Assembly (NCBI GenBank): GCA_026983715.1
Contig: JALSTM010000216.1
Coordinates: 1 to 39,256 of the forward strand
Source: Desulfobacterales bacterium
Lineage (GTDB): Bacteria; Desulfobacterota; Syntrophobacteria; B119-G9
Direction: 5' to 3'
Length of the DNA: 39,256 bases
Shown here: piece after piece, positions 16,770 to 34,377 of the stretch
How positions within the stretch are numbered: the first letter of the stretch is position 1
Layout: each line of letters starts with the position of its first letter
Program-made: the position numbers and the translations under genes
The notes under the pieces: generated by a model
Told to the model about the DNA's origin: nothing
Databases searched by the model: none
Seen by the model: only the letters and a program-made list of their open reading frames with translations

Positions 16770-16785
16770 TGGCACTTTTTTTGCT
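16770..16785 (+). promoter_or_regulatory. Consensus sigma-54 promoter for the MinD-like gene cluster
   Basis: TGGCACTTTTTTTGCT matches TGGCAC-N5-TTGCW at every defined base, with GG and GC correctly spaced at -24 and -12. RNA would start near 16796, 57 bases before the chosen start of the MinD-like gene. It lies downstream of the SYLF terminator, so it is in the right place. Such promoters need an AAA+ enhancer-binding activator, and none is encoded in this window. Confidence 0.75.
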
Positions 16786-19608: not shown

Positions 19609-20430
19609 ATGACAGTTAATCGTCTAAATCCTTCAGTGACCTCAGAAGTCTTGGAGGAACTGCTGGCGAGGGACCGAAAAGCCTTGCTTGGCGAGATGAT
19701 CCAGGGGGTATTGCATAACATAAACGGGCCGTTGCAAAATATTTTCATGGCCACGGAACTGTTAAAGGATCAACTCCTCCATCATAAGAAATTCCTTAGT
19801 TCAAGTGGTCTTGCCGATAACAAGCTTCTGGAAGACGTAGAAAAGCAACTGGCGCGACTGGGACATATCCAGGAAGGGGCTTACAATCTTTCCAATTTAA
19901 CTCAAAACCTGATCCAAGGAATGCAGATCCAGGGCGGAGAGGTGAAAACTGACCTCAATGTGGCCATCAGGAAGCTGGTGGAATTCTTCCAGAACAACCT
20001 CTTTTTCAAGCACAGAATAAAAGTTATCCTCGACCTAGACGAAAAATTGCCCCGGGTAAACGTCCCTATCTCAGATTTCTGGCAAAGTGCTGCTCACATT
20101 GTGAAAAATGCCATAGAAGCGATGGAGAACGTAGACTCAGATCGGATTCTCACCATAAAAACCTCTTATGACCACGGCAACGTCATTGTATCGTTTAGAG
20201 ATACCGGCATTGGTATACCGAAGGAAGTAAAGGATAAAATCTTCAACCTATATTACACAACAAAAAAATCTCATTCTACCGATAATGGTGATACTTCGGA
20301 GACTCTAGGTCTGGGCCTATATTGCGCCAAACACTTAATGTCGAAGCACGGGATTGACATAAGTGTCGAGTCTGGAAATGGATGGACAGAATTTTCTTTG
20401 ATAATTCCGTTGCATGAATACGATTCGTAG
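19609..20430 (+). CDS. Cytoplasmic sensor histidine kinase without an obvious sensor domain
   Basis: This is a 273-residue kinase. A short N-terminal helical part leads to a dimerisation/phosphotransfer region with His36 in GVLHNINGPLQNI, an H-box variant with Asn after His. The catalytic domain has an N-box (Asn167 in VKNAIEAM), a G1 box (DTGIGIP), an F-box region (FNLYYTTKK) and a G2 box (LGLGLY). There is no membrane segment or PAS/GAF domain, so it must take its signal from a partner protein, perhaps the MinD-like ATPase or the regulator encoded upstream. GGGAG precedes the ATG by 9 bases. Pairing with the HD-GYP response regulator is inferred from adjacency (48 bp). Confidence 0.9.
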   Translation: MTVNRLNPSVTSEVLEELLARDRKALLGEMIQGVLHNINGPLQNIFMATELLKDQLLHHKKFLSSSGLADNKLLEDVEKQLARLGHIQEGAYNLSNLTQNLIQGMQIQGGEVKTDLNVAIRKLVEFFQNNLFFKHRIKVILDLDEKLPRVNVPISDFWQSAAHIVKNAIEAMENVDSDRILTIKTSYDHGNVIVSFRDTGIGIPKEVKDKIFNLYYTTKKSHSTDNGDTSETLGLGLYCAKHLMSKHGIDISVESGNGWTEFSLIIPLHEYDS

Positions 20431-20580
20431 CAGCGATGAGTTGATAAAGGGAGCTTGTATCTCAAGAGTTAAGGCGCGAAATGACTACTTATTCACGAAA
20501 AAACCCTAAATCACAACCATACATTGTGAAAGCATATGCAGGAGAAACTAAGTGAAGAGAAAAAAATGGCTGCTAAGTAC

Positions 20581-20610
20581 TTGACTATACAGCATTCATA
20601 CGGTTATAAG
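20581..20610 (+). promoter_or_regulatory. Sigma-70-type promoter upstream of the small RNA
   Basis: TTGACT (20581-20586) and TATAAG (20605-20610) each match 5 of 6 bases, with an 18-base spacer. RNA would start near 20617, inside the adjoining sigma-54 site, so the two polymerase forms could compete or alternate. Confidence 0.55.
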
Positions 20611-20616
20611 AAAAAG

Positions 20617-20632
20617 TGGCACGGTGCTTGCT
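20617..20632 (+). promoter_or_regulatory. Consensus sigma-54 promoter of the small RNA
   Basis: TGGCACGGTGCTTGCT matches the extended consensus TGGCACG-N4-TTGCW at every defined position. The predicted RNA start is near 20643. A terminator lies only about 50 bases further on, so the site is not placed to drive the protein gene at 20841. Confidence 0.8.
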
Positions 20633-20642
20633 AAACCTTAAA

Positions 20643-20727
20643 TAACAGCAGGAAGTAGCGTGATACTCCCTGACCCCTCCTCCCTCCTTCCCTGGCCACG
20701 GGTAGTTTCCCGTGGCCATTTTATTTT
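20643..20727 (+). ncRNA. Candidate sigma-54-dependent small regulatory RNA with anti-Shine-Dalgarno repeats
   Basis: A transcript of about 85 bases is predicted from the sigma-54 start near 20643 to the terminator T-tract; from the sigma-70 start near 20617 it would be about 110 bases. It has no reading frame of note. Bases 20666-20692 are almost all C and T and contain CCTCCT twice (20676-20681 and 20683-20688), each the complement of the Shine-Dalgarno AGGAGG. The 3' end is a 10-bp hairpin with a U-rich tail, as in Hfq-type small RNAs. The layout (sigma-54 promoter, short RNA, terminator) recalls Vibrio Qrr and Pseudomonas CrcZ, without visible sequence similarity. Function is inferred; expression is untested. 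Confidence 0.6.
20693..20727 (+). terminator. Strong rho-independent terminator of the small RNA
   Basis: A perfect 10-bp stem (TGGCCACGGG at 20693-20702 with CCCGTGGCCA at 20709-20718) has a 6-base loop and is followed by TTTTATTTT. It separates the upstream promoters from the epimerase gene. Confidence 0.9.
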
Positions 20728-20744
20728 GAAGTTTTCAATAATCC

Positions 20745-20773
20745 TTGACAACTGATCTTAGAAGAGATTTCAT
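20745..20773 (+). promoter_or_regulatory. Sigma-70-type promoter for the epimerase gene
   Basis: A perfect -35 TTGACA (20745-20750) is followed after 17 bases by TTTCAT (20768-20773), a 4/6 -10 match. It lies after the terminator and about 60 bases before the ATG at 20841, the right place to start the epimerase transcript. Confidence 0.5.
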
Positions 20774-20840
20774 TAGGTTGCACGTAGCAGCAAGCCACAG
20801 AGGAACTTTGGTGCTTTACTTTCAGGGATAGGAGGATTCC

Positions 20841-21773
20841 ATGGGCGAAAAACAACCCTGCAGTAAAAAGATCCTTGTATGCGGGGCGACGGGGTTTATC
20901 GGAAAGAAACTCTGTTCTTTAATCATCAAATCAGGTCACGAATGTTATGTATTCAGTCGCAATCCGTCTGGTGCCGAGAAAATACTTCCTTCTGCTGTAA
21001 AAATTTTCCCCTGGCACGCAACAAAAGAACTTCCTTCTAGTCAAATCCTTGAAAAGGTCGATGCTATAGTAAATTTGATTGGCGCGCCGATCTTTACATA
21101 TTGGACCAGGAAAAAGAAGGAAGAGATTGTGGAAAGTCGCATAAAAAGTACGGAGAATCTTGTAAAGGGTATTTCGGCTTGCAATAGACCTCCGGAGGTA
21201 TACGTTGGCGCGTCGGCCGTTGGATACTATGGGGACAAGGGAGAGGAGGAATTGAGCGAGGATTCCCCACCCGGAAGTGATTTTTTGGCCCAGCTTTGCG
21301 TGGCGTGGGAGAGAGAAGCTCGGAGGGCGAGGGAGTATGGAGTGAGGGTCGTATGCATACGGACTAGCCCTGTTTTGGGGAGAAATGGGGGAATGCTTGA
21401 AATCATGTTAAGGCCGTTTCGTTTTGGCCTTGGTGGCCCCTTGAGTGACGGTAAACAGTGGATGCCCTGGATACACTTGGAAGACGAGGTGGGGATAATA
21501 TTAATGACCATAGAAAACGTTAAAATAAGTGGACCTGTAAACGCCGTAGCGCCTCACCAGGTAAGGAATATTGAATTTACTAAAACTCTTGGAAAGTTAC
21601 TGCGACGCCCCACCTTTATGAGGGTCCCACGTTTTGTTCTCAAGGTGTTGCTGAAAGAACTTGGTGAAGCAATGCTAGCGAGTCAAAAGGTGTCTTGCCG
21701 TAAGGTACTCGAGACGGGATACCGCTACAGGTTCCCCAGACTGGAAGAAGCTCTGCGCGAATGTCTTACTTAG
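20841..21773 (+). CDS. TIGR01777-family NAD(P)-dependent epimerase (SDR39U1-like)
   Basis: This is an extended short-chain dehydrogenase of 310 residues. The Rossmann motif GATGFIG is at the N-terminus. The active-site region is represented by VGASAVGYYGDKG, with tyrosines in the YYG motif, then RTSPVLGRNGGML and the typical PWIHLEDEV. The family (YfcH in E. coli) is widespread and its substrate is unknown; a nucleotide-sugar epimerase or reductase role is generally assumed. AGGAGG precedes the ATG, and the gene follows a probable sigma-70 promoter. PBP1B is encoded 85 bp downstream, so a cell-envelope link is possible but unproven. Confidence 0.92.
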   Translation: MGEKQPCSKKILVCGATGFIGKKLCSLIIKSGHECYVFSRNPSGAEKILPSAVKIFPWHATKELPSSQILEKVDAIVNLIGAPIFTYWTRKKKEEIVESRIKSTENLVKGISACNRPPEVYVGASAVGYYGDKGEEELSEDSPPGSDFLAQLCVAWEREARRAREYGVRVVCIRTSPVLGRNGGMLEIMLRPFRFGLGGPLSDGKQWMPWIHLEDEVGIILMTIENVKISGPVNAVAPHQVRNIEFTKTLGKLLRRPTFMRVPRFVLKVLLKELGEAMLASQKVSCRKVLETGYRYRFPRLEEALRECLT

Positions 21774-24808: not shown

Positions 24809-26869
24809 TTGCTGGCATCGATACTGGCATCGCTTTCGTCGGCGATCTTCTTGGTTGTCAAGGCAGATAAGAAGAGACCCGTCTTCTTCCTCGCTTTTTC
24901 TTTCTTCTTGCTGGCCCTCCGTGAACTGTTCAGGTTTTACTTTCTTCAAGAACAGTCTATTGAGTTCCTGAGATATTCGCTTCTCTGTGAACCTCCAATA
25001 ATAGCTTTCATGACGGAAGGTTGTGCCTACCAATTTGTGGAACGGATGTCTAGTCCAAGGCGAGTCGCTTTCCTGGGGGCAATGTTTCTTCTGGTGAGTG
25101 TGGCCTGGTCCGTTACGGGGATATATTATCCTTCTTCACTGCTTATTCTTTCGGGTGATGTTGTTCCCGTACTTACCATCGGCCAACTAGAAAAAGCCGG
25201 CGCGTTTTTGATTCTTGTTTTATCCGTTGGCCTTCTTTGGCGACTGGAAAACATCCTGAGGGAAAGCGAAGGGGGACTAAGATGGAGAGTTAAGTATGCC
25301 GTGCTAGGTATATTTATCATCGGAGGTGAATTTATCTGGGAAATGGGGTTCCGGCTTTCATATCTAAAAGTAGTTCCCGCACAGTTTGGACTTCATTCGC
25401 TTGTCATCGTTTCGGGTGTCGGTTTTTTTATGTTTGCCGTTGTGCGGCATCGTCTGTTTGAGGTTGAAGTATACGTATCCAGGTACGTTGTGTACCGTTC
25501 CGTGGTGTTTCTTGGGGTCGGGCTATATCTTATCATACTGGGACTTATAACTACCGTTATCAGGTACACGGGGCTGACCTACTCGCAGTTTGCATGGCAG
25601 GCGTTTTTGTACTTGTCGCTTCTCGCTCTTGTGGTTGTTTGTTTATCACAAGATGTTCGAAATAAAATACGTTTTTTCATAAATACTCACTTCTTTACCA
25701 ACAAGTATGATTACAGGAAGGAGTGGGTGGAATTCAGTGAAAGATTAGTTAATGTTCAGAGTGAGGGTGAAATCTTATCGCAATTGGAAAAGATGATATA
25801 TGAAACGATGTTTATTGACTGGGTGACCATATGGTTGCATTACAAAAACAAAGTCTTTAAACGAGTGTTGCCTAGAGATGGCTCCGTGAAGAAAAAGATC
25901 GTAGATTCAAATCATCTGTTTATAAGGTTATTAAAACAATCTGCCTACCTTATCTATTCCAGCAAGTACGGCTACATGAGCGACTATGGAATCCTTGAAC
26001 TCCCTCAGTCCGTTACTTCTTTTATTGAAGAAAATAACCTGGCACTTGCCGTACCATTGGTGGCCAAGGGTGAATTTCTTGGATTTATCGGAGTTGGACC
26101 GGAGTTAACCGGGACTGACTATGGTAGAGATGACATTGATCTCCTTAAGGGCCTTGCCAGCCAAACTGCTACCGCTCTTGACATGATCAGGCTGCACGAA
26201 GAACTTGTACAAAATCAAAAACTCCACCTTTTTAACCAGTTATCCATTTTTGTCATGCATGATCTAAAAAATGCAGCGAGCTTGCTTTCTCTTATCCTCC
26301 AGAATGCCCCTTCCCTCATGAATGACCCTGATTTTCAAAAGGATCTTCTCGCCACCATTTCATCTGCTTCCAGGAGGCTGGAAAAAGTAATGACTAAACT
26401 TAGAGCATTAAAACCTCCTGAAGAGAGAGAATTACGGCCGACTGATGTGAACAAGGTGATTAGCAAGTGCCTGGAAAGCCTGGTGCGTACGAACCCTGGT
26501 ATAGAAGTTGAGTGTAGCCTCGATGGCAACCTGGTTTGCGTGGCAAATGAGGAGCTACTGGGCAATGTGCTGGAAAACCTGTTTATGAATGCAAGAGACG
26601 CACTTGACGGGAAAGGTAAAATCCGGGTAGAAACGAAAAAGATTGACAAGCGGATGATACTGAGGATTTCCGACAATGGTCCCGGTATTGACCCAGAGTT
26701 TCTAGAGGAAAGACTTTTCAAGCCTTTTCAGACAACAAAAAAAGACGGCCTCGGGGTGGGTTTGTGGCAGGTTAAGAATTTCGTGGAAGCAATGGGAGGG
26801 ACTATTTCTGTGCAGACCTCTCCCGGAGAAGGAACCACCTTTGAAATCGTATTAAACATCAATCCGTGA
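24809..26869 (+). CDS. prsK: PrsK-like membrane histidine kinase (exosortase/PEP-CTERM type)
   Basis: This is a kinase of about 686 residues. Roughly eight membrane helices fill residues 1-285, followed by a GAF domain (about 310-465), a phospho-acceptor His484 in FVMHDLKNA and an HATPase domain with NLFMNARDAL, DNGPGIDP and GLGVGL. This order matches PrsK, the kinase of the PrsK-PrsR pair that controls exopolysaccharide and PEP-CTERM genes. No PrsR gene is next to it. The start is unclear: TTG 24809 has no ribosome site, whereas an in-frame ATT at 24788 has AAGGGGGG 9 bases before it. The last codons and stop lie inside dispersed repeat copy 2. Confidence 0.82.
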   Translation: MLASILASLSSAIFLVVKADKKRPVFFLAFSFFLLALRELFRFYFLQEQSIEFLRYSLLCEPPIIAFMTEGCAYQFVERMSSPRRVAFLGAMFLLVSVAWSVTGIYYPSSLLILSGDVVPVLTIGQLEKAGAFLILVLSVGLLWRLENILRESEGGLRWRVKYAVLGIFIIGGEFIWEMGFRLSYLKVVPAQFGLHSLVIVSGVGFFMFAVVRHRLFEVEVYVSRYVVYRSVVFLGVGLYLIILGLITTVIRYTGLTYSQFAWQAFLYLSLLALVVVCLSQDVRNKIRFFINTHFFTNKYDYRKEWVEFSERLVNVQSEGEILSQLEKMIYETMFIDWVTIWLHYKNKVFKRVLPRDGSVKKKIVDSNHLFIRLLKQSAYLIYSSKYGYMSDYGILELPQSVTSFIEENNLALAVPLVAKGEFLGFIGVGPELTGTDYGRDDIDLLKGLASQTATALDMIRLHEELVQNQKLHLFNQLSIFVMHDLKNAASLLSLILQNAPSLMNDPDFQKDLLATISSASRRLEKVMTKLRALKPPEERELRPTDVNKVISKCLESLVRTNPGIEVECSLDGNLVCVANEELLGNVLENLFMNARDALDGKGKIRVETKKIDKRMILRISDNGPGIDPEFLEERLFKPFQTTKKDGLGVGLWQVKNFVEAMGGTISVQTSPGEGTTFEIVLNINP

Positions 26870-34100: not shown

Positions 34101-34377
34101 CCCTGGCCGTGCTAGACGGGGAGCTAGCGGTGCCCTGTAACCCGAAAGCCGCTTATGCGGGGTCGAATTCCCCCCTGAGGACGTCGGGTTACCCTTGAGG
34201 GTTCGGGACCACGGAAGGATAGCTGGACACCATGCAACAGACGGATACGAACCCCGTCAGGTCCGGGAGGAAGCAGCGGTAAGTATTGCGGTCTGTGTCA
34301 TGGTTGACTCTAGCCTTACCGACCGTGGTAACGACTTCGAGGTTGTAACCGGTTCGAAGGAGGGTGCACGGCCAGGG
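34101..34377 (+). ncRNA. ffs: Signal recognition particle RNA, large bacterial form
   Basis: The 5' and 3' ends pair (CCCTGGCCGTGC with GCACGGCCAGGG), giving a molecule of about 277 bases. The 5' part, with GTGCTAGACGGGGAGCTAGCG and GGTGCCCTGTAACCCG, matches the Alu domain of the Bacillus scRNA type. Near the middle, GTCAGGTCCGGGAGGAAGCAG is the universal helix 8 Ffh-binding element. Its tetraloop is GGGA, not the usual GGAA. The large form with Alu domain is typical of Gram-positive bacteria and is found in some other lineages. A reading frame across its right half (34195-34419) is not a gene. Confidence 0.93.

Follow-up and report, generated by a model that had tools for sequence, protein, structure and literature searches.

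The 39,256-nt stretch of Desulfobacterales DNA analysed here (the window) in all likelihood encodes a real, strongly conserved, genus-restricted and sigma-54-dependent small RNA (sRNA) that has siblings elsewhere in the genome. The reading that best accounts for it, and which we consider probable, is that of a stand-alone, trans-acting sRNA of ~84 nt, one of at least three siblings, repressing translation through pairing of a pyrimidine tract with ribosome-binding sites. According to this model each sibling has a –24/–12 promoter of its own, from which a signal-activated enhancer-binding protein would switch on an RNA that opens with a 5' hairpin, exposes a pyrimidine tract similar to the anti-Shine-Dalgarno tail of 16S rRNA and closes with a strong terminator. 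Through its pairing with purine-rich ribosome-binding sites, the tract would reduce the translation of selected mRNAs, probably with no help from Hfq.

The unit stands alone between two genes (Table 1), and its principal elements are those recognised in the first-pass annotation, namely a perfect TGGCACG-N4-TTGCT sigma-54 promoter, a C/T-only stretch containing CCTCCT twice, and a terminator with a perfect 10-bp stem. The promoter is the only perfect site of its kind in the window and one of five in the 3.39-Mb genome, and when one mismatch is allowed the window holds three sites versus 0.19 expected. The C/T-only run (CCCCTCCTCCCTCCTTCCCT, 20 nt, 20674–20693) carries its two CCTCCT copies at positions 20676–20681 and 20683–20688, and includes the sole occurrence of CCTCCTCCC in the window, while the terminator stem-loop (20693–20718) is followed directly by TTTTATTTTG. 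The predicted fold of residues 20644–20726 (–30.9 kcal/mol, z –4.7), for which minimum free energy (MFE) and centroid structures agree, proceeds from the 5' hairpin through an open C/U tract to the terminator, with an ensemble unpaired probability of ~0.85 over residues 20670–20692. A TTGACT-18-TATAAG promoter, also proposed in the first-pass annotation, is indeed present in the sequence, but it is weak, was not called by a promoter scan and is poorly kept (CTGAAT/GGCATA in one of the related species, G002), and is probably not the main promoter. A further claim, that the downstream gene has its own promoter beyond the terminator, agrees with a conserved promoter-like block found at that location. 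A sigma-54-like site (TGGCACTTTTTTTGCT, 16770–16785) also lies 83 nt 5' of an operon encoding a MinD/ParA-like ATPase, an HD-GYP response regulator and the histidine kinase-like protein whose gene neighbours the sRNA.

Table 1. Features of the sRNA unit, its flanking genes and its siblings. Positions refer to the window unless a contig (C) or locus (L) is named.
Feature	Position	Strand	Basis or remark
Upstream gene, soluble histidine kinase-like protein (HATPase_c)	19609–20430	+	sRNA neighbour in 3/3 species
Block A (GyGyGAAATGrCkACnnnnnnACGAAAAAACCC), candidate activator site	20473–20506	+	23/34 columns invariant
Block B (TAAGTACyTGAmTAyACAG), candidate IHF-type site	20576–20594		14/19 columns invariant
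Sigma-70-like promoter: TTGACT (20581–20586), 18-nt spacer, TATAAG (20605–20610)	20581–20610	+	Direct reading, comparison
Sigma-54 promoter TGGCACGGTGCTTGCT (–24/–12)	20617–20632	+	Direct reading, genome site scan, comparison
Small RNA, ~84 nt, predicted start 20643–20645	20644–20727	+	Invariance from 20646
5' hairpin: two 4-bp helices, 1-nt internal mismatch, loop GCGUGA	20649–20672	+	MFE/centroid fold
Single-stranded pyrimidine tract ACCCCUCCUCCCUCCUUCCC, CCUCCU twice	20673–20692	+	Predicted fold; 16S-tail-like anti-Shine-Dalgarno motif
Intrinsic terminator: perfect 10-bp stem, 6-nt loop, T tail	20693–20728	+	Terminator finding, fold, comparison
Promoter-like block (TTGACA...) of downstream gene, 3' of terminator	20743–20778	+	26/36 columns invariant
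Downstream gene, TIGR01777 family oxidoreductase	20841–21773	+	Profile match; sRNA neighbour in 3/3 species
sRNA2	C227 (L145), about 1412–1516 of L145; sigma-54 site C227:22885–22900	-	Tract GGCACCCUCCCAUCCCCUAUCCA, strong terminator
sRNA3	C247 (L165), about 1226–1347 of L165; sigma-54 site C247:4573–4588	-	Tract ACCUUCCCCUCCCCCUACUCCU, long terminator

The unit was compared across the three genomes examined in the order, all belonging to one genus (the window genome G000, together with G001 and G002). The whole unit occurs in all three, invariably between the histidine kinase-like and TIGR01777 oxidoreductase genes. Within it, positions 20646–20702 are invariant (57 of 57 columns). In the terminator, the stem's 3' arm is likewise unchanged (10/10) and the loop is variable. 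Around the sigma-54 element 16 of 21 positions are invariant, the site reading TGGCATAGCGATTGCT in G001 and TGGCACAGGAGTTGCT in G002. Invariant columns amount to 2/13 in the gap between promoter and start, 11/72 in the spacer separating blocks A and B, and 8/62 in the 5' leader of the downstream gene, whose fourfold-degenerate sites are 23–34% identical between species and thus saturated. Joint conservation had been put forward in the first-pass annotation as a check on its proposal, and the result favours it: the –24/–12 element, the sRNA and the terminator are kept together in the three species, amid flanking spacer that has for the most part diverged. The best evidence here for the sigma-54 promoter being the working one is that the invariant block opens at its predicted start, and not at that of the sigma-70-like promoter. 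Since its first 57 positions are unchanged across three species, the sRNA is very likely a real regulator, as judged by sequence comparison. The 5' hairpin, being itself invariant, offers no covariation signal.

Beyond the genus no relative was detected. The Rfam 15 covariance models, applied at gathering score, yielded no family matching the sRNA or its siblings, BLAST in 56 genomes of the class found no homologue outside the genus, and a search of the remainder of the class and of 395 phylum genomes with a model of the sRNA returned no homologue beyond generic terminators. The weak matches of this model (≤33 bits) were paired or single GC-rich terminators lacking a sigma-54 promoter, and were discarded. 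Viral contigs gave no match to the sRNA either. The window also encodes the large bacterial signal recognition particle RNA (34107–34371; RF01854, 151 bits).

Inspection of all 36 sigma-54 sites in the genome with at most one mismatch for sRNA-like units revealed two others with this layout, sRNA2 and sRNA3, neither crossed by a long reading frame. Together with the three-species comparison they lend good support to the original proposal of a stand-alone, sigma-54-dependent sRNA, and the call now appears to extend, on sequence grounds, to a small set of at least three members. The first of these, sRNA2, is located upstream of a ribonucleotide reductase gene and divergent from it. The second, sRNA3, lies 127 nt 3' of a gene whose product, an activator, combines PAS, Sigma54_activat and HTH_8 domains, and an HdrA-like gene comes after it. 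A comparison drawing on 0.74 Mb of G001 and G002 contigs located sRNA3 at the same place in G001 (L302:6500–6621), beside HdrA and the activator (93.6% identical), with a perfect sigma-54 site and 97.9% identity over 95 nt from the predicted transcription start; fourfold sites of the adjacent activator are 28% identical between G000 and G001. A tandem GTTAA-N-TTAACA element upstream of sRNA3 is kept in both species, and the location of sRNA3 beside the activator gene suggests that it probably answers to that activator. The siblings have the open C/U tract in common and not the sequence elsewhere, and a search for an activator site common to the three returned only short chance words. A promoter-blind scan of terminators in the G001 and G002 contigs found a C/T tract before one of 158, and this one has a sigma-54 promoter. 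The corresponding scan of part of the window's own genome found such a tract before 4 of 207 terminators, three of the four with a sigma-54 promoter, a figure biased by the choice of loci L118–L147 for their sigma-54 sites, so that only the G001/G002 figure is bias-free. A fourth C/T tract (CCTCCTCCTTTCATCTCCC) preceding a terminator, on the minus strand of L148 near position 1273 (reverse orientation), lies between an HtrA-like gene and prsR and has no recognisable sigma-54 promoter.

Upstream of the window sRNA, two further conserved blocks may mark the sites from which its promoter is controlled. Block A is centred at about –150 from the sigma-54 start, the position expected of an activator site, and is unique, as no second copy with up to three mismatches was found genome-wide. 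Block B, ~57 nt upstream of the start, contains the –35-like TTGACT. In each of the three species it fits the IHF consensus on the minus strand (as WATCARNNNNTTR) at all but one position, an agreement that arises equally well in 22% of shuffled stretches. An arrangement of activator site, IHF and sigma-54 promoter is therefore a plausible one, which we infer from these positions. The genome has about 25–30 sigma-54 activators. A candidate for the activator itself is encoded by the PrsK/PrsR system, and membership of the sRNA in this PEP-CTERM/exopolysaccharide regulon was considered. The PrsK histidine kinase (TIGR02916, 383.6 bits versus a cut-off of 300) is encoded at 24809–26869, ~4 kb downstream of the sRNA, a genome search placed PrsR on contig C92 (577.5 bits versus a cut-off of 502.6), and the sRNA promoter is 92% identical over 25 nt to that of a PEP-CTERM gene on contig C166. 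The PEP-CTERM control element has been described as a 17-nt motif ending in TTTACA and situated 32–92 nt on the 5' side of a sigma-54 site (PMC1569441). A candidate PrsR enhancer of this type (17 nt ending in TTTAC; YGTCGAWAWWTTTTACW) was identified 64–66 nt upstream of perfect sigma-54 sites at C92 and C166 (loci L118 and L121), which precede a secreted-protein gene adjoining prsR and the PEP-CTERM gene, respectively. The consensus was derived from these two sites and fits them perfectly by construction, so that the informative result is its absence upstream of the sRNA, where at least 6 of the 17 positions are mismatched in all three species. Despite the near-identical promoter core, the missing enhancer makes PrsR an unlikely activator of the sRNA, and its membership in the regulon is improbable. 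Here prsK closes an apparent operon (TIGR01777, PBP1b-like, TPR-like protein, prsK), and prsR is found apart from it, though the pair is usually adjacent.

How the sRNA would act is suggested mainly by its tract. The first-pass annotation envisaged a block on many AGGAGG-led mRNAs, to which a slight preference of the tract for start regions lends weak support, although no individual target stands out. With start sites chosen blind to the Shine-Dalgarno sequence, the window tract pairs with start regions at –10.7 kcal/mol versus –9.5 kcal/mol for gene interiors (p = 0.001), and for each of the three tracts the pairing is slightly stronger at starts than in interiors (p = 0.001, 0.03 and 0.001). 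An earlier, stronger enrichment was inflated by starts having been picked for Shine-Dalgarno strength, and among plain window genes the preference is negligible. Its weight is limited in any case, because any anti-Shine-Dalgarno sequence would show it. Ranking of duplexes identified no exceptional target for the tract. The Shine-Dalgarno region of the TIGR01777 gene, tried as a special target, was rejected as one, ranking well in two species (26/568 in the window genome and 13/568 in G002) and as ordinary in the third (78/568 in G001), and hdrA beside sRNA3 is likewise ordinary (261/568). A search for Hfq (TIGR02383) in the genome, which is 94% complete, produced no match, and five control genomes were positive. 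Because Hfq was not found, the very GC-rich tract may, if the sRNA does pair, need no helper. The sRNA would most likely act by anti-Shine-Dalgarno pairing. The invariance of the sRNA, which includes its terminator stem, is more than pairing with ribosome-binding sites needs, and it may bind a protein or another RNA as well.

This excess of conservation speaks for a different function of a genuine sigma-54-dependent sRNA, in which it would bind a protein, as a decoy of the CrcZ or CsrB type, or another RNA, and not ribosome-binding sites. Invariance of the entire molecule, beyond a mere seed, would be expected of such a function, which is also consistent with the lack of an outstanding mRNA target and with the sigma-54 dependence of CrcZ. 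Nevertheless, the sRNA contains no repeated protein motifs. Its single GGA, being in a stem and not in a loop, would suit CsrA poorly, and the sRNA lacks A-rich (AAN) repeats such as those of CrcZ. The genome search gave no Hfq, and the siblings have an open C/U tract in common but differ in sequence elsewhere. We regard this function as unlikely, while giving it more credence than the remaining alternatives. One of these is a cis-acting role, the unit being a leader or attenuator of the TIGR01777 gene with a regulated terminator. Both lie on the same strand and are neighbours in three species, in two of which the tract forms a good duplex with the downstream ribosome-binding site. However, beyond the terminator lies a conserved promoter-like block belonging to the TIGR01777 gene, a single structure dominates the fold with no evident competing antiterminator, and the neighbours of sRNA2 and sRNA3 differ, with hdrA no notable target, so that such a role appears quite improbable.

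Two other readings have very little to commend them. Contrary to the initial statement that no reading frame fits, a GTG-initiated frame of 31 codons (20660–20755) does exist, preceded at 6 nt by AGGA and open in two of the three species, and the unit might thus encode a small protein. The frame is rejected as coding, since the wobble bases of the first 14 codons are all invariant whereas fourfold sites are saturated, and in G002 the terminator loop has lost 1 nt, which shifts the frame and would carry it through the terminator; a protein product is accordingly highly improbable. The conserved feature could also be the DNA itself, in the form of a template-strand G-quadruplex (G4) opened by the promoter. 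In Neisseria, the pilE G4 reportedly has an associated sRNA whose promoter serves to open it. The window has a single G-quadruplex motif (GGGAAGGAGGGAGGAGGGGTCAGGG, 20668–20692, minus strand), which is the complement of the tract and does not vary among the three species. A G4 would nonetheless have no need of the 5' hairpin and terminator to which the invariance extends, neither donor repeats nor a recombination target came to light, and the tracts of sRNA2 and sRNA3 do not obviously keep the motif, leaving scarcely any room for this idea. The preferred reading remains that of a trans-acting sRNA whose tract would pair with ribosome-binding sites.

Several known systems share parts of this design. 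The Qrr sRNAs of Vibrio form a group of siblings, each with its own sigma-54 promoter, that depend on Hfq and on one activator, LuxO. The siblings described here are similarly several, each with its own sigma-54 promoter, and sRNA3 adjoins a sigma-54 activator gene, but here the search for Hfq gave no match and the siblings have dissimilar upstream elements; we know of no sequence relation between the window sRNA and Qrr. CrcZ and CrcY of Pseudomonas are also sigma-54-dependent, and crcZ follows the activator gene cbrB much as sRNA3 follows its activator gene, yet the window sRNA is short and has a C/U tract, unlike CrcZ, whose A-rich repeats form part of a long decoy. In the sulfate reducer Desulfovibrio vulgaris, Dv_sRNA2 is located downstream of the response regulator gene DVU0679 and is under the control of that regulator (PMC3333781), a regulator–sRNA neighbourhood resembling, by its description, that of sRNA3. 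The cuckoo or alpha-r14 sRNAs, including NfeR1 of Sinorhizobium and the related CcsR RNAs of Rhodobacter, have three hairpins each exposing CCUCCUCCC (PMC10746234), an anti-Shine-Dalgarno motif that is identical in the window sRNA and unpaired in its predicted fold. In contrast to these sigma-70-dependent alphaproteobacterial RNAs with three motif-bearing hairpins, the window sRNA has a single tract between two hairpins, has a sigma-54 promoter, belongs to another phylum and has no Rfam match. Also comparable with the window sRNA is CJnc230/FlmE of Campylobacter, which has a single-stranded anti-Shine-Dalgarno stretch flanked by two stem-loops and RpoN-linked expression, but which is processed from the flgE mRNA with no sigma-54 start of its own and contains a CCUU motif only (PMC11187230).

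The 57 unchanged positions amid saturated neutral sites make the window sRNA directly testable as a regulator, and the succession of a sigma-54 site, a C/T tract and a terminator within ~110 nt provides a genomic search rule for more such units. As a sigma-54 promoter stays off unless an activator acts on it, an sRNA placed behind one is a clean switch. More tentatively, and with doubt outweighing confidence, the siblings, at least three in number, might each respond to their own sigma-54 activator and signal and all deliver a mimic of the 16S tail, thereby constituting a multi-input, Hfq-free translational brake, a design for which no description in Desulfobacterota was found in the literature searched. 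If this is true, the brake would act on mRNAs with G-rich ribosome-binding sites, and environmental anaerobes in which Hfq is not detected could run base-pairing regulation without the usual chaperone.
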